Source of the DNA: Desulfobacterales bacterium
Lineage (GTDB): Bacteria; Desulfobacterota; Desulfobacteria; Desulfobacterales; JAHEIW01
Direction of reading: 5' to 3'
DNA length: 34,453 bases
NCBI GenBank assembly: GCA_020348305.1
Contig: CP070746.1
Coordinates: forward strand, 2,897,995 to 2,932,447
Of this stretch, positions 14,448 through 30,728 are shown piece after piece. The notes beneath the pieces are model-generated. The model did no database searches. It was not told the DNA's origin and saw only the letters and a program-made list of their open reading frames with translations. Position 1 is the stretch's first letter; each line of letters starts with the position of its first letter. The translations under genes were made by a program, and so were the position numbers.

Positions 14448-16898
14448 ATGAAAAAAATTTTTTTCATTTTATTTTTATTACTCTTATCTTCTGTGGCCAT
14501 TGTCGGTTCCGTTGTGCTTAAAGATGGAATGAATAAAAAGATCCTAATTCTGGAAAACGGCACAATGCAGGAGGTCGATAACACGTGGGAAACAGGAGAT
14601 ATATTCTTCTTTGAGATTGACGGTGAAGTCTATCTAATCAACAAAGACGAAGTAACAGGTATCGGCAAAGCCGATTATAGATATTATTTCAACCAACTTA
14701 AAACCAAAGCAGCTGTAATTACCGGCAGAGCGTTTTATAAAATCAAAGCGTTTTCCAATTCAACCACAAGCTTAATTCATACCTATTTTTCATTAGCGGT
14801 CATCATACTCGGCGCGATGCTGGTTTCTATTTTTATCCTGATAATAATACGTGCATTTATCGGACCCCCAAAACCACATCGCTTTTCCGAACCTGAACCC
14901 ATTCTGGATAGAGATGAGGATCATGAAATCACCCGATTAGATATCGTTAAATATTTTCTCAACATCTTTAAGCTACAAATCGAAGCATCGCAGGATGCTT
15001 CCGCGAAGATCGTACCATTGTCATCGAAATCGTCGAGTCCGAATTATATTTATGAGTTGCGTATTGGTGACCGCGGCGAATGGGTAAAACGTCGCATGAC
15101 CATCGGCCCGTTGGGTGAAGAAACCGGAAGCAAGAGTAAGTGTTTTTATGTTATCTATGACGTCCATTTAGTTGTAAAAATTCCCACAAAACCAATCAAT
15201 GATTTTGACCAATACATTGAGAGTATTAATAAAGAGGGCCATATCGTCGAAAAACTGGCACCCAAAGAATGTGTCATCCCCAAGATATCTGTTATTCTGA
15301 ACCTTATCCATAAATTCCCGGACATTGACCCCTTTGCGACTGAAACGCTTGAAAAACGATACATAACCTGGCTTCGTGAAAATACGAATTATCAGAACTA
15401 TTTAAAAATAAGAAATTCGTTTATCTTCTTTATGGATTTCTCTAAATTTTACTTTTTAGGGCATATCATCGACAACTTGCATGATTTGAAAGATTCGATT
15501 CCGTCAGAAATTATTGAGAATGCTGAGACGATTTGGGAAGTTTCAAAGTTTAAAGGAAGATACGGCAAAATAAAGGAGCCCGTATTTTTCGAAATTCAAG
15601 AAGTTTACGACAAATGTGAAGCAGAAACTCGAAAATTTCTTACCGATTGCGGGGAAGCCTCTTCGATCTCGCTTTTCCGAATACAGAGTTGGTTCTTAAC
15701 CCATTTAGGCGGAAAAGAAGTTATACCCAAGGATAGCGGTATACGCGAAACATCGGTTCCGGGGTTAAATCGACTGATTCGCAAAATACTAGAATCCAAT
15801 CAGGCGGCGGTTGAATCCTACAGAAATGCGATTAAGGAATATGTATATAAAATCAGGTTTGAACAAAATAAGCCGCTTATGGCCGGCATCGTAACAAATC
15901 TTCTCGATCTTTTAGCCTGGCTGAGAGCAAAACAGGTATCGATGAGAGATCTAAAGCCAGATAATTTGCTCGTTGCAGGTGATCCATCAAAATATCCGCT
16001 GTTTTTAAGGTCGCCGAAAGAATATACCCTGGGAATTATAGACGTTGAAACCGCCGTTGATTTCGAAAAATCAAAATATAAAAAAACCGAGCAGCCCCTA
16101 TTAGGAGGCACGCCCTTTTATGCTACGCCTTCTCATTTCTTTACCAATGAAACGTTGAGCTACTGTTTTCAGAATTTTCGGAAAATTTTGCATTATCAAG
16201 ATTGGCATGCAATGGTTGTCATGGTCTTTAAAACTGTTACGGGAGATCTTTTGTTCGAACAAACAGCCAGAATGTTCGGATATGTAAAAGATAAGATTAG
16301 ACAGTCTCATTCTGAGGTGGAAGAACAAGCTAAAATTGTAAAAGATGTCAGCCGTGAGTTCTGGAGAAGTGCATCCACTGAGTTTCAGACAAAATTGGGT
16401 GAAAAAGAAGAAGCGTTGAAGTCTATCCACACAATTGTCCCGGATAGTGCGAAGCAGATGTTTTTGACGTCAGTGGCGCAAGATCAAAAAACCACAATTG
16501 AAAAGATACGCAACTGTATAACCTCACAAGCGGCATTTCAGAGTGATAAAAGTCGCGATCTTCTACTTAAATCTTCTCCGGCAAAAATCATCCAATTCAG
16601 AAACCATCTTAAAGATAAATTCAAAGCTTCAGCCAATCCCTCAATCGATGCATCCAAGGTGTTGGAGTTTCTAGATGACCTGACTCGGTTAAAGCATTAT
16701 TCCGACCAACAAAAACATATTATTATTCTGCTAAATCAGCCGGAATCGAAAATGTCAGCTTATGATATCCTGACGTTTATGTTTTACACGGTTTACCACA
16801 CGATGATTAAAGAAGAATGGCAGAAGGCGCGTGATGAGGATATCTGTGTCTCTGAACCTTTGGATGATGAAGCGACGACTTTAGAAGCCTATCCATAA
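14448..16898 (+). CDS. Divergent transmembrane Ser/Thr-type protein kinase
   Basis: This 816-residue protein has two hydrophobic segments (about 4-23 and 112-137) flanking an extracytoplasmic stretch of about 90 residues. A large cytoplasmic part follows with the key elements of an ePK: candidate ATP lysine Lys244 (HLVVKI), catalytic loop MRDLKPDN (499-506), metal motif DVE (532-534) in place of DFG, GGTPFYATPS (553-561) as the activation/P+1 loop, and DWHAMV (585-590) for the usual D-x-W. Lys, catalytic Asp501, Lys503, Asn506 and Asp532 are all present, so activity is plausible despite the altered HRD and DFG. An insert of more than 200 residues lies between the N-lobe lysine and the catalytic loop. 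The C-terminal region (about 600-816) is helical and unrecognised. Substrates are unknown. It is transcribed alone, divergent from the DnaJ gene. Confidence 0.75.
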   Translation: MKKIFFILFLLLLSSVAIVGSVVLKDGMNKKILILENGTMQEVDNTWETGDIFFFEIDGEVYLINKDEVTGIGKADYRYYFNQLKTKAAVITGRAFYKIKAFSNSTTSLIHTYFSLAVIILGAMLVSIFILIIIRAFIGPPKPHRFSEPEPILDRDEDHEITRLDIVKYFLNIFKLQIEASQDASAKIVPLSSKSSSPNYIYELRIGDRGEWVKRRMTIGPLGEETGSKSKCFYVIYDVHLVVKIPTKPINDFDQYIESINKEGHIVEKLAPKECVIPKISVILNLIHKFPDIDPFATETLEKRYITWLRENTNYQNYLKIRNSFIFFMDFSKFYFLGHIIDNLHDLKDSIPSEIIENAETIWEVSKFKGRYGKIKEPVFFEIQEVYDKCEAETRKFLTDCGEASSISLFRIQSWFLTHLGGKEVIPKDSGIRETSVPGLNRLIRKILESNQAAVESYRNAIKEYVYKIRFEQNKPLMAGIVTNLLDLLAWLRAKQVSMRDLKPDNLLVAGDPSKYPLFLRSPKEYTLGIIDVETAVDFEKSKYKKTEQPLLGGTPFYATPSHFFTNETLSYCFQNFRKILHYQDWHAMVVMVFKTVTGDLLFEQTARMFGYVKDKIRQSHSEVEEQAKIVKDVSREFWRSASTEFQTKLGEKEEALKSIHTIVPDSAKQMFLTSVAQDQKTTIEKIRNCITSQAAFQSDKSRDLLLKSSPAKIIQFRNHLKDKFKASANPSIDASKVLEFLDDLTRLKHYSDQQKHIIILLNQPESKMSAYDILTFMFYTVYHTMIKEEWQKARDEDICVSEPLDDEATTLEAYP

Positions 16899-17047: not shown

Positions 17048-18544
17048 ATGAAACCTTCTTTCTTACGTTCTTTAGCAGTCGGTCTTACCTTCTGTCTGGT
17101 TTGCTCATTTCCGGTTGAATTGGTTTGCGCTGATAAAGTTCGCAAACCAGCCAAAGCGGGCTCTTGGTATCCGGCCGATTCAGCCAAATTAAAAAAAGAA
17201 ATAGATCATTTTACCCGATTAGCCCAAAAAGCACAGATTCAAATTCCCTCCACAATACATCTCAAAGCACTGATACTCCCACATGCCGGAATTGCTTGTT
17301 CCGGACGGACAGCCGCACATGCTTCATTTGTATTAATTGGCAAGCGATTCCCCAAAGTTATTTTAATGGGACCTGATCATTATGTCAGATTCAGAGACGG
17401 TGCCATCAGTGACGTGAACGCCTATGAAACTCCCCTTGGTTCTGTAAAACTTCATCCGGATGCACATAAATTACGCTCCCAATCTGATTTATTTCAAGCG
17501 GTACCGGCATCAGATCGCAATGAACACTCCTTAGAAATGGTTTTGCTTTTTCTGCAATCCTATATGGAGAATTTTCAGCTCATCCCAATTGTGGTCCGCC
17601 AAACGAACATTCAACGAATTGCACAAGCACTGGACAAGATAATCGATTCCGATTCATTACTGGTTGTTAGTTCGGATCTGTCTCACTATTTGCCTTACGC
17701 TGAAGCTATTGAAAAAGATCGAGAAACCATTCAATGGATTCTGAATCTTGAAGCGTCCAAACTATTAAAAACTCGAGATCGAGCCTGTGGTGCTATCCCT
17801 ATATCCATTCTGATTCAAGTGGCCCAACAGAATAACTGGCAGCCGGTCCTTCTGCATTATTCAAACAGCGGTGATACCTGCGGGAATCGAGCAGGTGTCG
17901 TTGGTTATGCCGCGATTGCTTTTTTTGGAGATCAGCCTATGCAAAAGAAAAACGAATCCAGCCAACAGTTAAGTGAAAAACAAGGACAGGTTCTGGTCAA
18001 ACTGGCCCGACAGACAATCATGGAAAAACTCGGCTGCGAGGTGCCCGAGACCGAAGCTGAATCTGTTGAATCGGCCTTAACGGATGAATGTTACCAATCA
18101 CACTGCGGCACATTCGTTACGCTTAAAATCGATGGCCAGTTACGGGGCTGTATCGGCAACTTGACCGCTACAGAGCCCCTTTCGGAAGGTGTTAGACAAA
18201 ATGCCATAAATGCTGCATTTCATGACCCGCGCTTTTCTCCACTGACGGAAAAGGAACTGGATCAAATCGACATAGAAGTGAGCATACTTACCGAACCTCA
18301 ATCTCTTGGATACAGCGACAGCACGGATTTACTCAGCAAACTACGCGTCAATGTTGACGGTCTTATTGTCCGAAAAGGATATTCCAGTGCAACCTTCCTC
18401 CCCCAGGTGTGGGAGCAATTACCTAATCCGGAAGATTTTCTTGCGCACCTTTGTATGAAAGCCGGTTTGCCATCTGATGCTTGGCGCAACACCAAACTTG
18501 AAGTTTTGACCTATCAGGTCCAATACTTTGAAGAGCACAAATGA
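17048..18544 (+). CDS. AmmeMemoRadiSam system fusion: Memo (B) + AMMECR1 (A), exported
   Basis: This 498-residue protein joins two parts of the AmmeMemoRadiSam system, whose biochemical role is not established. Residues 1-28 form a signal peptide (positively charged start, hydrophobic core, VCA-type cleavage end). The Memo domain (about 31-295) has LPHAG (His79), GPDHY (His111), SSDLSH (His213) and Cys278 (GDTCGN), which match the metal-binding His/His/Cys positions of human MEMO1. The AMMECR1 domain (about 310-498) has the hallmark LRGCIG at 365-370. AAGG lies about 9 nt ahead of the ATG, behind a good promoter. It overlaps the next gene by 17 nt. Export of this normally cytoplasmic pair is notable and fits the Tat signal on the radical SAM partner two genes downstream. 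Confidence 0.9.
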   Translation: MKPSFLRSLAVGLTFCLVCSFPVELVCADKVRKPAKAGSWYPADSAKLKKEIDHFTRLAQKAQIQIPSTIHLKALILPHAGIACSGRTAAHASFVLIGKRFPKVILMGPDHYVRFRDGAISDVNAYETPLGSVKLHPDAHKLRSQSDLFQAVPASDRNEHSLEMVLLFLQSYMENFQLIPIVVRQTNIQRIAQALDKIIDSDSLLVVSSDLSHYLPYAEAIEKDRETIQWILNLEASKLLKTRDRACGAIPISILIQVAQQNNWQPVLLHYSNSGDTCGNRAGVVGYAAIAFFGDQPMQKKNESSQQLSEKQGQVLVKLARQTIMEKLGCEVPETEAESVESALTDECYQSHCGTFVTLKIDGQLRGCIGNLTATEPLSEGVRQNAINAAFHDPRFSPLTEKELDQIDIEVSILTEPQSLGYSDSTDLLSKLRVNVDGLIVRKGYSSATFLPQVWEQLPNPEDFLAHLCMKAGLPSDAWRNTKLEVLTYQVQYFEEHK

Positions 18545-20642
18545 AAGAGTTATAATCCAGGTGGTTATCGCCACGGGTATCTCCTCCGTGGTCACCCAAT
18601 TGCTGACCATCCGTGAATTTCTAACCCAATTCCAGGGCAACGAAATCGTCATTGCTCTGATTCTTTTCAACTGGCTGATTCTGGGCGGAATCGGCACCCT
18701 CTTGGCCCGGATAATTACCCATCGCTTATGGAAGGCAACCATCACCAGGCTGGGCTGGCTTTCCTTATTTTTGAGCGCATTTTCGGCTCTACAAATTCTT
18801 GCCGTTCGAGGGCTACGCGATGTGGTTTTCCTTCACGGCAGCTCGGTAGGATTCTATCCCACATGGCTGTATACCTTTTTTATTATTACGCCGTATTGCC
18901 TTTTGCTCGGATTTGTGCTGCCGTACAGTCTCTTTGTACTCAGAAATGAAACCCTTGATTATCCGGGTGCCCGCATTTATATCACCGACAATATCGGCGA
19001 TATTTCCGGCGGCGCCCTTTTTTCTTTTGCACTGGTTTATCTGGTGACCCCCCTGCAGGCAATATTTTTAGCGCATTTACCTCTACTGGTTGCCACCTAT
19101 CTTCTCTTTCTGGGTAAGAGAAGGCATCGACCAATTGTTTTCGTGGGTTTAGGACTTGTGATCGCAGTCCTTGTGGCGGGTATCTTTTTTGAAAAGGCTT
19201 CCCTTAAGCCTTCTGAAGGCAAGCTCGTTTATTACCGTGAAACCCGATATGGCCGTATTGCGGTTCATCAGGATCGGGAGCAATTTACCTTATTTGAAGA
19301 CGGAATCCCAGTGTTTAGCAATCAGAACATCAGCATCGCAGAAGAAACGATTCATTATCCTTTAGCTCAACTAGATGATGTCGAACATATATTATTGGTT
19401 TCGGCAGAAGGCGGTGTGATGGAAGAGCTACAAAAGTACGCACTGCGGTCAGTGGATTATGTAGAGCTTGACCCGGAGGTGACATCCGTTCAATTTCGGT
19501 TCGGCATGATTAAAGAAATACCGGGATTACAAGTCATTCATCAGGACGGGCGGGCGTTTTTGGCCAATTCGAAAAAGATCTATGATGCAATTATTGTCAA
19601 TTTACCCGAGCCCGAAACCTTTCAGATCAACCGTTTTTACACCGATCGGTTTTTTGAATTGGCCAAAGATCATCTTTCTAAAAATGGTGTGTTGAGTTTT
19701 TCCATGCAGGGATTCCAAAATTACCTTGCCGAACCACAGCGCCAAAAATTCTCTTCCCTTTACAATACAGTTTCTGCCTATTTCAAATATGTCATCTTGC
19801 TGCCGGGTCAAAAAGTTTTTTTTCTGTGCAGCAATCGACCTATGAATACCGACATTCCGGCCGCACTGGCCAGCAAAGGCATATCCACCGGCTACATCAG
19901 CGGATTTTATTACGGCAACCTGACTCCCGAAAGAATCAAGCGTCTGAATCAGCGCATCGATCCGTCCACTCCGACAAATCTCGACAATTCTCCCTATCTA
20001 ATACGTGTGATGTTTTCGCAATGGTTTTCCAAGTATCAAACCTCCCCTCTTGGCTTTATTATTGCTATTGTCGCACTCATATTCATCTATTTGTTTCGTA
20101 TTTCTCGAGAAGAATTTGTTCTATTTTCAACAGGCTGCATGACCATGGGAAGCGAAATTCTCGTAATCTTTGCATTTCAAATCTTTTTCGGCTATATTTA
20201 CCTGCAAATCGGAATCATTATCACTGTCTTTCTTGCCGGACTGTTACCCGGCGCATGGTTTGGCAACAAACTGTGCCGGCAGGGAAAACAGGTTCTAGCG
20301 TTGACAGACGGTCTGCTGGTTGTATTGCTGGGCATTTTTATCTTCGCCCTGGATAAAGGTGGAGATCGCCTACCTGTGCTATTTTTTCTCATATTTGGCT
20401 TAGTGGTGTCTTTGGCCTGCGGGTTTCAATTTCCAGTCGCACTTCATTTGAGGGGCAGCGATAATGTCGCAGCCACCCGCACGTTTTCCGCTGATCTGAT
20501 CGGAGCAGCCTGCGGCACCCTTTTTACCAGTGTTGTATTAATCCCTTATTTTGGTATAATCTGGGCGGCTATCGGTTTGATAGCATTAAAATTAATAAGT
20601 CTCATGTTGATTGGTACTCATAAAAACCCCATACTTACATGA
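18528..20642 (+). CDS. Polytopic membrane protein with spermidine-synthase-like domain
   Basis: This 704-residue protein has about seven N-terminal membrane segments (to about residue 221), a SpeE-like Rossmann methyltransferase-fold domain (about 232-470) and about six to seven further membrane segments. SpeE-like features are YYRETRYGRIAV, LLVSAEGG (289-296, for GGGDG), VELDPE (312-317) and YDAIIVNLPEP (352-362). Enzymes of the family have acids where this protein has Asn358 and Glu361 (usual VDSxDP), so aminopropyl transfer is doubtful. Basic loops (61-74; 197-201) and the RISREE after the next segment put the domain outside the cytoplasm. The start is TTG at 18528, overlapping the upstream gene; the ATG at 18541 is out of frame. 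Co-transcription with Memo-AMMECR1 and radical SAM points to a joint role. Confidence 0.8.
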   Translation: MKSTNERVIIQVVIATGISSVVTQLLTIREFLTQFQGNEIVIALILFNWLILGGIGTLLARIITHRLWKATITRLGWLSLFLSAFSALQILAVRGLRDVVFLHGSSVGFYPTWLYTFFIITPYCLLLGFVLPYSLFVLRNETLDYPGARIYITDNIGDISGGALFSFALVYLVTPLQAIFLAHLPLLVATYLLFLGKRRHRPIVFVGLGLVIAVLVAGIFFEKASLKPSEGKLVYYRETRYGRIAVHQDREQFTLFEDGIPVFSNQNISIAEETIHYPLAQLDDVEHILLVSAEGGVMEELQKYALRSVDYVELDPEVTSVQFRFGMIKEIPGLQVIHQDGRAFLANSKKIYDAIIVNLPEPETFQINRFYTDRFFELAKDHLSKNGVLSFSMQGFQNYLAEPQRQKFSSLYNTVSAYFKYVILLPGQKVFFLCSNRPMNTDIPAALASKGISTGYISGFYYGNLTPERIKRLNQRIDPSTPTNLDNSPYLIRVMFSQWFSKYQTSPLGFIIAIVALIFIYLFRISREEFVLFSTGCMTMGSEILVIFAFQIFFGYIYLQIGIIITVFLAGLLPGAWFGNKLCRQGKQVLALTDGLLVVLLGIFIFALDKGGDRLPVLFFLIFGLVVSLACGFQFPVALHLRGSDNVAATRTFSADLIGAACGTLFTSVVLIPYFGIIWAAIGLIALKLISLMLIGTHKNPILT

Positions 20643-20673
20643 GTTATCAACATAAAAAATTAAGGGATTAAGC

Positions 20674-21861
20674 ATGAAAAAAATATCCAGACGTCAATTC
20701 CTTTATGGTAGCGCAGCCGTTTTATCCACGACTATTCCCTCTCAAACTTTCTGGCCTTCTGCGCCAAAACCATGCCAATCAGCTCTTGCGGAGGATATCC
20801 GCGGCAAAGTCTTTAAAGGGGATGGACCCAAAGAATTGTGGAAATGGTCCCATGAAGGTTTTCTTTATAAAAGGCTAAGCAACCAAAAGGTGGTTTGCGG
20901 GATTTGCCCCAATCGCTGTGTCCTGGCCCCTGGTGACCGAAGCGTTTGCCGATCTAAGGTCAATATTAACGGTGCCTTATACAGCTTGACCTATGGAAAT
21001 CCCTGTTCGGTGAACACCGATCCGATTGAAAAAAAGCCGCTGTTTCATTTCAAACCCCGCACCAAAGCGTTTTCGTTAGCCACCACCGGCTGCAATTTTC
21101 GGTGTCTCAATTGTCAAAACTATGAAATTTCCCAAGCCAAACCCCATGAAGTATGGAATTATGAGCTATTCCCGCCCGACGCCGTAAAAGAGGCTCAGCG
21201 AGCCGGAGCAGATTCCATCGCCTATACCTATTCCGAACCGATCACCTTTTTTGAATACATGATCGACACCTGCCGTCTGGCCAAAGAAAAGGGTATCTAT
21301 AATGTTTTAGTCTCCAACGCGTATATCAATCGAAAACCGCTGCTGGAGCTTTGCAAGGTATTGGATGGGGCCAGCCTTAACCTCAAATCATACAGTGATG
21401 CCATTTACCGCAAACTCAACGGCGGTCGGCTGAAACCGGTTCTCAACACCTTTAAGACGTTGCATGAAAAAGGCATCCATTTTGAAATCATCAATCTGGT
21501 AGTTCCTGACTACGTCGACGATGATGAAATGGTCAAACAAATGTGCGGCTGGATGCTGGAAAACCTTGGTCCTGATTATCCGCTGCACTTTTTGCGGTTT
21601 TTCCCACGGTATAAACTCGACCGACTACCCCCTACCCCGATATCGACACTGACGCGTTTCCGGAAACTGGCTATGCAGGAAGGAATTCACTATGTCTACA
21701 TTGGCAACGTACCAAATCATGAGGGAATGAACACCTACTGCCACAATTGTAAAAAGCTGTTGATTGCCCGTATGGGGTATTTCATTCCGCAATATAATTT
21801 AAATGCAAATCGGTGCAAATTCTGCGACACGGCTATTCCGGGGGTATGGAACGAAGCTTAA
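20674..21861 (+). CDS. AmmeMemoRadiSam system radical SAM enzyme with Tat signal
   Basis: This 395-residue radical SAM protein resembles the AmmeMemoRadiSam/PflA-activase-like branch. It carries a twin-arginine motif SRRQFL (5-10) with a hydrophobic stretch and an ALA-type cleavage end near 39. Next come a four-Cys cluster (75, 78, 82, 92), the canonical CxxxCxxC (Cys140, 144, 147 in TTGCNFRCLNC), YTYSEP and the radical SAM core. A C-terminal four-Cys zinc-ribbon-like part (CHNC ... CKFC) follows. The Tat pathway carries folded, cofactor-loaded proteins, so an Fe-S enzyme could be exported intact. The ATG has AGGGA 6-7 nt upstream, 31 nt after the membrane protein gene. Its substrate and the source of SAM and electrons outside the cytoplasm are unknown. 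Confidence 0.9.
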   Translation: MKKISRRQFLYGSAAVLSTTIPSQTFWPSAPKPCQSALAEDIRGKVFKGDGPKELWKWSHEGFLYKRLSNQKVVCGICPNRCVLAPGDRSVCRSKVNINGALYSLTYGNPCSVNTDPIEKKPLFHFKPRTKAFSLATTGCNFRCLNCQNYEISQAKPHEVWNYELFPPDAVKEAQRAGADSIAYTYSEPITFFEYMIDTCRLAKEKGIYNVLVSNAYINRKPLLELCKVLDGASLNLKSYSDAIYRKLNGGRLKPVLNTFKTLHEKGIHFEIINLVVPDYVDDDEMVKQMCGWMLENLGPDYPLHFLRFFPRYKLDRLPPTPISTLTRFRKLAMQEGIHYVYIGNVPNHEGMNTYCHNCKKLLIARMGYFIPQYNLNANRCKFCDTAIPGVWNEA

Positions 21862-24671: not shown

Positions 24672-25412
24672 ATGAAAAAGATCTTCCTCATCGTCATTTT
24701 GATCTGCCTTAATCCGACCTTGTTATTTTCAGGTACGCTAAAGGATTTGTCAAAATTCAAAAAAGCCAGAGAAGAACTTGTTAAAAACGATATCGAAAAC
24801 AAAGGTATTAAAGATCCCAAGGTTTTAGCGGCGATGAGGGAGGTGCAGCGGCATTCCTTTGTTCCCGACGAGTTGGAATCCGCTGCATATGCGGACCGTC
24901 CGCTCCCTATCGGAGAGGGTCAAACGATCTCCCAACCCTATGTTGTTGCCCTTATGACCGAAATTCTCAACCTCACCAATGGACAGCGCGTGCTGGAGAT
25001 CGGAACCGGATCCGGTTACCAGGCCGCCATCCTGGCAAACATTACCAGAGAAGTATATTCGATCGAAATTAAACAAAAACTATATAAAAGAGCCAGTAAG
25101 GTTCTAAAATCACTTGGTTATAAGAATGTATGGACACGCCATGGTGATGGATATTTTGGTTGGAAAGAAGCAGCGCCTTTTGATGCAATTATGATCACTG
25201 CGGCTGTGGACCATATACCACCCCCATTGATCAAACAGCTCAAAGATGGTGGAAGACTTACCCTTCCCCTTGGCAATCCATTCAGTTACCAGAATCTGGT
25301 TCTTGTCACCAAACACGGTGACGATTATTCGGTTAAACAAATAACCGGCGTGCTTTTTGTCCCCATGACAGGCGTCGCCCTCGAACGCAGAGGGGAAATA
25401 CCCTCTCAATAA
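24672..25412 (+). CDS. Protein-L-isoaspartate O-methyltransferase with signal peptide
   Basis: This 246-residue Pcm uses SAM to methylate isoaspartyl residues in damaged proteins and so start their repair. It contains FVP and [20 protein letters not shown] (74-93), the SAM loop [13 protein letters not shown] (107-119), VYSIEI and a [13 protein letters not shown] region, all typical of Pcm. Most Pcm proteins are about 205-220 residues and cytoplasmic. The extra N-terminus here ([21 protein letters not shown]) is a clear signal peptide, so this one is probably periplasmic or lipid-anchored outside. AAGGAG lies about 8 nt ahead of the ATG. Its stop is 6 nt before the next gene, a membrane protein with a SpeE-like domain, so the two are surely co-expressed. 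The source of SAM in the periplasm is the open question. Confidence 0.9.
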
Positions 25413-25418
25413 TTCCCG

Positions 25419-27812
25419 ATGATGCTTAGCGCAGTATTCCTTGTATCTGTTTCCACGCTGGCATTTGAAGTCCTGCTTACACGGTTTTTTGCAATCAGGC
25501 AGTGGAATCATCTTTCCTTTATGGTGATCAGCATCGCCCTTTTTGGATTTGCTGCCAGCGGAACATTTTTAAGTATCCTGGATACTCGCAAAAAGGGTTG
25601 GCAAGATCTTTTTTCAACCCGACTTTCGGTGGCCTATATCGTTCTCCTGTATACCACTACCGCGGTTTTATCTTTCATCACCCTAAACAATATCCCTTTG
25701 GATTATTTTCGACTCCCCCTTGAACCCATCCAGTCAATTTACCTATTGGTCGCCTATATCCTTTTAGCCCTTCCGTTCTTTTTTTCGGGATTAATAATCT
25801 CATTAGCGTATGCGCTTGTTCCGGAAAAAACCGGCTTTGTCTATTTTGCATCCATGGCTGGTTCTGCTTGCGGGGCCGCACTTCCGGCATCGGTCATTCC
25901 TGTCTTTGGTGAAGAAAAACTCATCATTTTTGCAACTCTTTTACCTTTGATGCTGATCCCCGCTTCCAGCATAATTCGATTCACAAGACACAAATCAGCA
26001 ATTAAAGACCAGCGCTTGATGACCCCTTTTATCGTTTTGTATAGCCTGATAATCATCGGCTTTGCGTCATTTCTGATGACAAAAAACGGTTTTTTCATCA
26101 TCAAAGTTGACCCCTCTCCTTACAAGGCGTTGTCCCAAGTCCTTCAATTCCCCAAAACTCAAATTGAAAAAACCGCTATCAGTATTCGGGGAAGAACGCA
26201 AAAAGTAAAAACCGCTTACATCCGTTTTGCTCCCGGCTTAAGTCTCAAATACACGGATAATCTGCCCCGACAATCTGCTACCTTCAGAGACGGCGACAAC
26301 CAGTTTGTTTTATATGACATTCGTTTGGCAAATGAAGCGCGATTTGCAAAATTTACACTTTCATACTGCGGATATCTACTGGTACCAAATACCAAAAAGG
26401 TTCTTTTGATCGAAAACGACGGCGGATTGGCCCTTCCATGCGCCATTGCCGCAGATGCGCATCAAGTTCAGATTGTTGTACAAAACCCGCAACTCGCTCG
26501 CATCATTCACAATCACTACAGGTTCCCTGTAGTTGGATATAACCCCAGATCGTTTCTTGCGCGCACCAATGACAGGTTTAACATCATCCATGTGGAGAAT
26601 TGGGGCACTTCACTTCCGGGATCAGATGCGCTGAATCAATATGATCTTTTGACCAATAATGCCTTTGCCGAATATCTAAACCATCTGACACCCGGGGGCG
26701 TTATCATTTTGTCGCGCAAATTACTGCTTCCACCGGCAGATTCAATCCGCATGTGGGCGCAGGCCTATGAAGGATTAAAAATGTCCGGAATTAAGAATCC
26801 TCCGGCCCACATGGCCATGCTGCGCAATTGGGATACCTATACCCTCATTGTATCGGCAAAACCGCTGCAAGATACAACGAAGATAAAGCAATTTGCTACT
26901 GATCTGAATTTTGATCTGGTTTTTCTTCCAAATATTCAGCCGGAAATGGTCAATAAATATAATATCTTCGATGAGCCTTACCACTTTCTTGAAATCAGTA
27001 GCTTGTCAGAAGCCTATGCAGAGGAAAAAGAAGAAGATTATTTCAAGGCCTATTTAATCGACGTTCGTCCACAATCGGACATACGCCCGTTTCCGGGCCG
27101 ATTTTTAAAGTGGCCCAAATTGAAGGCGCTTTACAAAAGCATGGGAAGCAGATTTTATGCATTATTTATGTCCGGTGAAGTGGTGGTTTCGGTCGTTTTT
27201 CTTGAAGCACTCGTGGTAGCGGTGTTCCTTTTGTTTGTCCCTATCTTTGTATTTTTGAGAGAAAGCCGAAAACCTTCAATATCCCAAGTCATCTATTTTG
27301 TGGGAGTGGGTGCAGGCTTTATGTTCGTCGAACTTTTTTTCATCAAACGATATGTACTTATTTTTGGCGATCCGGTTATCAGCCTCACGGTTGTGCTTTC
27401 TGCAATTCTGATCTTTTCAAGTATAGGTGGTCTCTGGGTCCAGCACAAAAAAAACGCCGGGATCCGAAACTCACTGATCGTATTAATCGTCTTACTCCTG
27501 GCAACCATCTTTTGTATTGAGTGGATCGTTGATCATATATTAGGATTTTCTGTCATTTGGCAGTATACAAGCGCATTTTTATTGGTATTGCCGGTAGGCT
27601 TTTTTATGGGTCTGCCCTTCCCTCTCGGGATGCGATATCTTTTGAAGAACCCTGCCCAGCGGGCATATGCTTGGTCTGTAAACGGGTGTGCATCGGTTTT
27701 AACTTCAATTGGGGCCGCCCAAATTGCTTTGAGCTTTGGAATTCCGTATATCATGGGAGCTGCCATAATAGGTTATGCTCTGGCTTTGGCAAGTCTGGGT
27801 AGGCGCCGATAA
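25419..27812 (+). CDS. Polytopic membrane protein with degenerate spermidine-synthase-like domain
   Basis: This 797-residue protein has the same plan as the protein at 18528-20642: about seven N-terminal membrane segments, a soluble domain (about 235-570) and about six C-terminal segments ending in an MFS-like GLPFPLGMRYL stretch. The soluble domain keeps a Rossmann-like VLLIENDGG-LALP region but lacks the glycine-rich SAM loop and the catalytic acids of real spermidine synthases (VENWGTS where VDSxDP is usual). Basic loops (DTRKKGWQDLFSTR; RFTRHKSAIKDQR) suggest the domain faces the periplasm. Two ATG codons lie side by side at 25419, 6 nt after the exported pcm gene. The function is unknown; pairing with a SAM-dependent exported enzyme is the best clue. 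Confidence 0.75.
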   Translation: MMLSAVFLVSVSTLAFEVLLTRFFAIRQWNHLSFMVISIALFGFAASGTFLSILDTRKKGWQDLFSTRLSVAYIVLLYTTTAVLSFITLNNIPLDYFRLPLEPIQSIYLLVAYILLALPFFFSGLIISLAYALVPEKTGFVYFASMAGSACGAALPASVIPVFGEEKLIIFATLLPLMLIPASSIIRFTRHKSAIKDQRLMTPFIVLYSLIIIGFASFLMTKNGFFIIKVDPSPYKALSQVLQFPKTQIEKTAISIRGRTQKVKTAYIRFAPGLSLKYTDNLPRQSATFRDGDNQFVLYDIRLANEARFAKFTLSYCGYLLVPNTKKVLLIENDGGLALPCAIAADAHQVQIVVQNPQLARIIHNHYRFPVVGYNPRSFLARTNDRFNIIHVENWGTSLPGSDALNQYDLLTNNAFAEYLNHLTPGGVIILSRKLLLPPADSIRMWAQAYEGLKMSGIKNPPAHMAMLRNWDTYTLIVSAKPLQDTTKIKQFATDLNFDLVFLPNIQPEMVNKYNIFDEPYHFLEISSLSEAYAEEKEEDYFKAYLIDVRPQSDIRPFPGRFLKWPKLKALYKSMGSRFYALFMSGEVVVSVVFLEALVVAVFLLFVPIFVFLRESRKPSISQVIYFVGVGAGFMFVELFFIKRYVLIFGDPVISLTVVLSAILIFSSIGGLWVQHKKNAGIRNSLIVLIVLLLATIFCIEWIVDHILGFSVIWQYTSAFLLVLPVGFFMGLPFPLGMRYLLKNPAQRAYAWSVNGCASVLTSIGAAQIALSFGIPYIMGAAIIGYALALASLGRRR

Positions 27813-29202: not shown

Positions 29203-29354
29203 CAACACCGTTGGGTAACATAAAGTCATAACTCATCCCAAAAAGTTGAGTTGTCTTGTTACGCCATCTCATGTATGGTGCGAATAGATATCTGAATACT
29301 TACCGTATTCGTGTACATCGAGTCAACGATATTTGGATTTCCGGAGGAAGAAAC

Positions 29355-30728
29355 ATGCAAACCCCTTTTCCGTTTGAATCCATGCTCCTTTTCGGTAGTT
29401 TAGCAGCCATGCTTTTAATCGGTGTTTTGCTGAGAGCCAAGATCCCGTTCTTTCAGAAATTTCTTATACCCAGTTGCCTGATCGGAGGAATTTTAGGTTT
29501 AATCTTGATAAATATTGGCGTCTTTCAAGTTTTTCAATTATCAACATCGCATTTAGAAACATTTGCGTATCATTTTTTTAATATTTCCTTCATATCGGTC
29601 GGATTAACTCTCAACGGCAATCAGCGAAATACAATAAAGAAAGAAAAGGGGGTTCTGAAAGGACCCTTGTGGATGGCTCTCACTCAAACCGCAATGTTTC
29701 CTCTGCAGGCTGTAGTCGGAGGGGTACTTGTAATAATATTTGGATTATTGGGCATCAAGCTATTTCCGACCTTTGGCTTTTTTGCACCACTGGGTTTTGA
29801 GGAGGGTCCCGGTCAAGCATTATCCTTCGGCAAAGTCTGGGAGGGGTTCGGTTTTGAATATGCCACAACCATAGGCCTTACATTTGCTGCCATAGGATTT
29901 TTCTTTTCGTTTTTTGTAGGAGTGCCGCTGGTTAATTGGGGTATTCGAAAAGGCTTGTCCACCCACGGTTCCAAGGTATTGCCACAAGATTTTCTTGTCG
30001 GGATTATTCCAAAAAACCAGATAACTGAGCCAGCCGGAAAGCTTACCTTTCACTCCGGCAATGTCGATTCACTCGCTTTTCAAGCAGCGTTGGTCGGGTT
30101 TGTTTACACCGTAACGTATGCCTGCGTAAAATACATTGGAATGATTGTGCCTCCTGATGTAGCATCCATTTTGTGGGGATTCTTCTTCATCTTCGGTTTG
30201 GGAATTGCGCTAATCGTCAGCTGGGTGATGAGTAAATTCAACATCGAACATTTGGCTGATTCCGGTATTCAACGAAGAATCACCGGCTGGTCCGTGGATT
30301 TTTTAATTGTTTCGACAGTAATGGCCATAAAACTGGCTGTCGTATGGAAGTATATCGTACCAATTTCAGTGATTTCAATATGCATTGGCGTATTAACAAC
30401 ATTTGCCGTTGTCTATTTAGGAAAAAGAATTTGGGCGTATAATCTTGAAAGGACAGCAGCGGTATATGGTGCCGTGACGGGAACCGTATCCTGCGGCCTG
30501 TTACTGCTTCGAATCGTCGATCCGGAGTTTAAAACACCTGTGGCCATTGACATTGCGTTGATGAATGTTTTTTCAATCCCAGGAATTGGACTTTGTCTTG
30601 TGCTGGTAAATGGTCCGGTATGGTGGAACTGGGGTACAGGATGGACTGTCCTGGTATTTCTGGCCGTTATGGTTGTGGCTCTGGTAATGCTGCGGATATT
30701 TAAATTGTGGGGAAGCCCTAAATTTTAA
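29355..30728 (+). CDS. GltS-type sodium/glutamate (carboxylate) symporter, copy 2
   Basis: This 457-residue polytopic symporter is of the same ESS family and subgroup as the one at 328-1689. Shared stretches include the start M-x-TPF, AYHFFxISFISxGLT, EGPGQALSFGKVWE, HSGNVD, VNWGIRKGL and TGTVSCGLLLLRIVDPEFKT. About ten to twelve membrane segments are expected. The start at 29355 follows GGAGGAAG by about 5 nt; a longer frame from 29256 adds 33 residues without family likeness and is rejected. The presumed role is Na+-driven uptake of glutamate or another carboxylate. It precedes the GAF-phosphatase gene by about 65 nt. Two diverged paralogues in 30 kb suggest different substrates. Confidence 0.85.
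   Translation: MQTPFPFESMLLFGSLAAMLLIGVLLRAKIPFFQKFLIPSCLIGGILGLILINIGVFQVFQLSTSHLETFAYHFFNISFISVGLTLNGNQRNTIKKEKGVLKGPLWMALTQTAMFPLQAVVGGVLVIIFGLLGIKLFPTFGFFAPLGFEEGPGQALSFGKVWEGFGFEYATTIGLTFAAIGFFFSFFVGVPLVNWGIRKGLSTHGSKVLPQDFLVGIIPKNQITEPAGKLTFHSGNVDSLAFQAALVGFVYTVTYACVKYIGMIVPPDVASILWGFFFIFGLGIALIVSWVMSKFNIEHLADSGIQRRITGWSVDFLIVSTVMAIKLAVVWKYIVPISVISICIGVLTTFAVVYLGKRIWAYNLERTAAVYGAVTGTVSCGLLLLRIVDPEFKTPVAIDIALMNVFSIPGIGLCLVLVNGPVWWNWGTGWTVLVFLAVMVVALVMLRIFKLWGSPKF

Follow-up and report, generated by a model that had tools for sequence, protein, structure and literature searches.

An AmmeMemoRadiSam gene set with export signals and a transporter-like membrane partner in Desulfobacterota

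Can a radical SAM enzyme, together with its companion proteins, be placed outside the cytoplasm? As far as we know, radical SAM chemistry and SAM are both regarded as cytoplasmic, and we know of no reaction for the human relatives MEMO1 and AMMECR1. The question is raised by three adjacent genes in a window (the whole stretch of DNA analysed here, 34,453 nt) at positions 2897995-2932447 of the single contig of a 6.97 Mb Desulfobacterales genome; the closest relatives found, of which CP070694.1 is an example, are uncultured Desulfobacterales bacteria. Positions 17048-21861 of the window, on the + strand, hold genes for a Memo-AMMECR1 fusion, a polytopic protein and an AmmeMemoRadiSam radical SAM enzyme, the start of the second overlapping the end of the first by 17 bases. 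A preliminary description had located the three genes correctly and proposed that they place a complete AmmeMemoRadiSam set outside the cytoplasm.

Gene content and export signals in the window

The Memo part of the fusion scores 214 bits with TIGR04336 (cut-off 26) and the AMMECR1 part 206 bits with TIGR04335 (cut-off 99), and the radical SAM protein reaches 332 bits with TIGR04337 (cut-off 220). The fusion and the radical SAM protein carry the signals that had been proposed for them, and the protein encoded between them is indeed polytopic. The fusion starts with a hydrophobic N-terminal signal (MKPSFLRSLAVGLTFCLVCSFPVELVCA, followed by DK), and the radical SAM protein, with an N-terminus that reads MKKISRRQFLYGSAAVLSTTIP...SALA followed by ED, has a twin-arginine motif of the SRRxFL type, that is, an S/TRRxF-type motif ahead of a hydrophobic stretch. 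A gene for TatC was found in the same genome. The radical SAM enzyme was modeled with a pLDDT of 89, and its N- and C-terminal cysteine motifs are nearly invariant in exported and cytoplasmic copies alike.

Table 1. Features of the locus and of the second exported pair, in window coordinates
Feature	Position	Strand	Evidence
Memo-AMMECR1 fusion (AmmeMemoRadiSam proteins B+A), 498 aa, signal-bearing	17048..18544	+	TIGR04336, TIGR04335; Pfam Memo, AMMECR1
Sec signal peptide, residues 1-28 (cleavage by eye)	17048..17131	+	hydropathy
His79, putative metal ligand (human MEMO1 His49)	17282..17284	+	108/108 homologues
His111, putative metal ligand (human MEMO1 His81)	17378..17380	+	108/108 homologues
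Cys247, putative metal ligand (human MEMO1 Cys244)	17786..17788	+	profile alignment to 3bcz/7kq8; 108/108
AMMECR1 domain, residues 315-494, LRGCIG motif kept	17990..18529	+	TIGR04335; motif comparison
704-aa membrane protein of 14 helices, MFS fold with a spermidine-synthase-like insertion	18528..20642	+	AlphaFold2, fold comparison
Inserted spermidine-synthase-like domain (between helices 7 and 8), residues about 230-475; periplasmic by prediction; E313 and D340 kept, catalytic Asp lost (N358, E361)	19215..19952	+	model, charge bias, alignment
AmmeMemoRadiSam radical SAM enzyme, 395 aa	20674..21861	+	TIGR04337; pyruvate formate-lyase activating enzyme fold
Tat signal peptide, SRRQFL motif, residues 1-39 (cleavage inferred)	20674..20790	+	motif in linked homologues
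CxxxCxxC [4Fe-4S]/SAM motif, C140, C144, C147	21091..21114	+	117/117 exported, 39/39 cytoplasmic copies
Protein-L-isoaspartate methyltransferase (PCMT) with Sec signal, second exported SAM enzyme	24672..25412	+	PF01135, E 1e-65
797-aa membrane protein, divergent but alike in architecture, PCMT partner	25419..27812	+	hhalign; adjacency in relatives

The three residues that bind iron or copper in human MEMO1 are His49, His81 and Cys244 (PMC11081632). His79 and His111 had been rightly named as kept ligands in the window protein. The third had been taken to be Cys278, a residue present in only 6 of the 108 homologues and not aligned with human Cys244; we discarded it as a metal ligand, and the equivalent position is Cys247. 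In the AMMECR1 part, the LRGCIG motif is invariant or nearly so among 118 sequences.

The genome has four TIGR04337 proteins above the cut-off. Besides the window copy there are L015, which is cytoplasmic and has no signal, the orphan L016, which has a Tat signal, and a divergent Tat copy (L017, positions 127000-141000 of the contig), which adjoins its own 594-aa spermidine-synthase-like membrane protein and has no Memo gene beside it. Of its three Memo proteins, the window fusion has a signal, and L018 and L019 do not. Cytoplasmic and exported versions thus coexist in one genome. The radical SAM gene of L017 also adjoins a gene whose 319-aa product has a signal peptide. Runs of N in the contig (L015, L016, L019, L020) resemble scaffold joins and could affect these paralogue counts.

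Signals and membrane partner across Desulfobacterota

The survey covered loci in 58 genomes of the order, 80 named loci identified via the membrane protein and 40 phylum-wide loci, all within Desulfobacterota; signals were scored by the twin-arginine motif and hydropathy, with cleavage sites inferred by eye. The AmmeMemoRadiSam genes share one neighbourhood in the window and in about 90 further loci, and their linkage is kept in at least four arrangements (Memo, membrane protein, radical SAM; membrane protein, radical SAM, Memo; radical SAM, Memo, membrane protein; and convergent radical SAM and Memo genes with the membrane gene). The 157 different radical SAM loci include 98 that adjoin the membrane protein, and the Tat motif is present in all 95 of their readable N-termini. 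A hydrophobic Sec-type signal was scored in 85 of 87 Memo proteins adjoining a Tat radical SAM protein, the two misses being a contig end and a threshold case, and in neither of the two Memo proteins adjoining a cytoplasmic one. Radical SAM loci without either partner comprise 37 without and 16 with the motif, some of the latter being explained by contig ends. The expected co-occurrence of signals with the membrane protein is therefore observed; a locus with the same gene order and no signals, which would have spoken against export, was looked for among the 157 radical SAM loci and none was found.

A tree of 112 radical SAM domains separates a 73-row clade in which all members have the Tat motif (SH-aLRT 95) from 39 rows that all lack it. 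This split holds after label correction; the first labels, based on hydropathy, gave four label changes, and rows were relabelled because the upstream window was too short (L042, L043, L046, L047 and L167), because of a false call (L073) or because of a threshold miss (L148). The apparent Tat-less exception L149 was dismissed, as its N-terminus is a run of N.

The twin-arginine signals might also be uncleaved anchors, tethering the radical SAM enzyme to the cytoplasmic face with Memo alone outside. Some of these signals are only modestly hydrophobic (H 1.29 in the window), as an anchor reading would allow; however, the retention of the motif in every readable linked homologue argues against it, as does a natural control, genome G054, where there is no membrane partner and both signals are absent together, from the Memo-AMMECR1 fusion and from the radical SAM protein. 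We consider mere anchoring very improbable.

These results confirm that a signal-bearing AmmeMemoRadiSam set with a membrane partner recurs across the phylum, and many sulfate-reducing-type bacteria seem, from their sequences, to export the full set along with a transporter-like membrane protein. The whole set thus carries export signals in step with the membrane protein, as had been proposed, but at least five loci (L026, L121, L131, L140 and L164) have AMMECR1 as a separate gene without its own signal, which counts against the claim that every product is exported. Unfused AMMECR1 genes usually lack a signal, and their products may be cytoplasmic there or be co-exported with the Tat substrate. 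Four of these loci (L121, L131, L140 and L026) have distinct genes for Memo and AMMECR1, which in some cases overlap at an ATGA.

A clue to the substrate was sought among the neighbouring genes of the loci, but none outside the module proved widespread. Thirteen related loci have an aldehyde:ferredoxin-oxidoreductase-like gene close to the module, and nine have a gene for a small lipoprotein-like, 3D-domain-like product, possibly a link to the envelope; in one of the nine (L135) it directly follows the radical SAM gene. Within the window, positions 14448-16898 encode a protein of 816 aa that has membrane helices at its N-terminus and a C-terminal part weakly resembling protein kinases, with homologues near the module in three further loci, and two similar polytopic genes resembling sodium/glutamate symporters lie near its two ends (328-1689 and 29256-30728).

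A transporter fold with a degenerate spermidine-synthase-like domain

The membrane protein had been described as polytopic, which is correct though incomplete as an identity: a Spermine_synth domain was detected in it, and AlphaFold2 (pLDDT 87, pTM 0.87) modeled a spermidine synthase domain flanked on each side by seven helices. The helices match MFS folds (VMAT2, Z 28.7; NarK, Z 26.6), with choline-bound FLVCR1 also among the top matches, and the inserted domain matches SpeE (Z 26.3). The topology calculation sets the N-terminus inside, as in MFS proteins; mean Lys+Arg is then 17.8 in the predicted inside loops and 2.2 in the outside ones, with the same direction in 110 of 110 homologues. Helix fold and charge bias are accordingly those of an MFS transporter with its N-terminus predicted inside, and this bias places the spermidine-synthase-like domain, by prediction, in the periplasm.

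In a profile alignment the family matches human spermidine synthase (E 1e-21), and E313 and D340, which we take to correspond to the ribose and adenine contacts of the nucleoside pocket from their roles in the spermidine synthase family, are kept in 108/110 and 110/110 homologues, respectively. The position of the catalytic Asp is occupied by Asn (N358) in 86 of 110 homologues and by Asp in three, and the GGGDGG loop is degenerate, reading SAEGG. The window protein hence has neither the catalytic Asp of the DxxDP motif nor the nucleotide loop, and we rejected it as a working spermidine synthase; these losses make any aminopropyltransferase activity unlikely. Ten membrane spermidine synthases from this order that are not linked to the module retain both GGGDG and DLPDP.

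The window contains a second pair of this kind, an exported PCMT and a 797-aa protein that is a full-length homologue of the 704-aa family in hhalign (probability 98.9%, E 2.3e-17, 655 columns). The charge bias of its family agrees with that of the 704-aa family in 22/22 cases, with helix limits taken from hydropathy by eye. PCMT adjoins this homologue in about 18 of the 23 genomes possessing it, and all 16 linked PCMTs with a cleanly readable N-terminus have a signal; of the others, one begins with a stretch of N, and two that are more distant seem to have a signal, though less clearly. No signal is present in 20 unlinked PCMTs of the order, but five further PCMTs have one and lack a membrane protein of this kind beside them. 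SAM dependence is the common property of PCMT and the radical SAM enzyme, and the occurrence of one membrane family beside both suggests that SAM is the shared need of the partners. The acidic pair corresponding to E313 and D340 is replaced in the 797-aa homologue, so SAM binding by the spermidine-synthase-like domain would not be general.

The membrane protein could also move a substrate or product of the pathway, such as a polyamine-like or adenosyl-derived compound, rather than SAM, its spermidine-synthase-like domain being a substrate-binding relic. MFS transporters carry many small molecules, as the VMAT2 and choline-bound FLVCR1 matches illustrate, and the degenerate nucleotide loop and catalytic residues are consistent with such a role; against this, SAM is the only substrate that we know to be common to the enzymes paired with the two homologous membrane proteins, and we judge this explanation unlikely.

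Proposed periplasmic activity and relation to known systems

Gene content, signals, fold, topology, conserved sites and co-occurrence are established by computation. The reading that we prefer, with a probability of roughly 0.4, is that the exported AmmeMemoRadiSam set works in the periplasm with an MFS-fold partner that handles SAM or its by-products. The periplasmic half of this model draws on the signals and their conservation, and the SAM-handling half on the fold, the topology, the residual pocket and the association with PCMT. We infer periplasmic catalysis, SAM handling and the following order of steps. The radical SAM enzyme, already folded and carrying its clusters, would leave via Tat and the Memo-AMMECR1 fusion via Sec; both would act in the periplasm, at the membrane, alongside the MFS-fold protein, which would most likely supply SAM to the radical SAM enzyme or clear adenosyl by-products from it; and the radical SAM product would then be processed by the His/His/Cys metal site of Memo and by AMMECR1. 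Metal or an envelope polymer had been suggested as the substrate, and nothing was found that points to either. We put forward, more tentatively, that the MFS-fold family with its periplasmic, catalytically dead spermidine-synthase-like domain might be a dedicated SAM-handling device enabling exported SAM enzymes, namely the radical SAM system and a methyltransferase of protein repair, to function in the periplasm.

We know of no occurrence of SAM in the periplasm, which counts against this model and favors the possibility that the radical SAM enzyme does its work in the cytoplasm, before or during export. The Tat pathway exports folded proteins with their cofactors bound, and could here delay exit until clusters and SAM are in place, for a single turnover or a carried product, the membrane protein being an anchor or scaffold with no SAM movement; the fully kept catalytic motif agrees with this. 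Nevertheless, a Memo-AMMECR1 fusion with a Sec signal must fold outside and could not then cooperate with a radical SAM enzyme that works inside, and the recurrence of the membrane family beside an exported methyltransferase points to SAM as the shared need, so that we regard internal action as rather unlikely.

If the preferred model is right, SAM would be an added cofactor in known periplasmic chemistry, and the exported set would give the AmmeMemoRadiSam proteins a setting for gene-by-gene tests of substrate and cofactor supply, with the PCMT pairing offering an assay opportunity with a known reaction. The protein families themselves were already known. In the literature searched, which was mostly open-access, we found no description of their joint export, of the monophyletic exported clade or of the recurring transporter-like partner, and no paper on a radical SAM enzyme in the periplasm or on export of an AmmeMemoRadiSam set.

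The window set resembles the AmmeMemoRadiSam system (TIGR04335, TIGR04336, TIGR04337) in that all three proteins score far above the cut-offs and keep the metal ligands and cluster cysteines; it adds Sec and Tat signals, the B+A fusion and the MFS/spermidine-synthase-like component, and its exported clade is monophyletic and accompanied within genomes by a distinct cytoplasmic paralogue. The 704-aa protein shares membrane helices and the spermidine synthase fold with membrane- or MFS-fused spermidine synthases (PRK03612 type, NF037959 MFS_SpdSyn), but scores below both cut-offs (104.6 bits against 472 and 36.6 against 40), and differs from the unlinked enzymes of its order in the predicted periplasmic location of the domain and in the lost catalytic Asp and GGGDGG loop. 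Among solved folds, the radical SAM model is nearest to that of pyruvate formate-lyase activating enzyme (Z 23.1; 225 residues superposed at rmsd 2.1), followed by NifB (Z 17.0); the window protein scores far below the cut-off of the former family (51.5 bits with TIGR02493, cut-off 231.75), from which it differs by its extra N- and C-terminal cysteine motifs, its Tat signal and an operon that has no glycyl radical enzyme. Finally, human MEMO1 (PDB 7kq8, 7l5c) is of the same family as the Memo part and has the same three ligands, whereas the window protein has in addition a signal peptide and a fusion to AMMECR1 that the human protein lacks.
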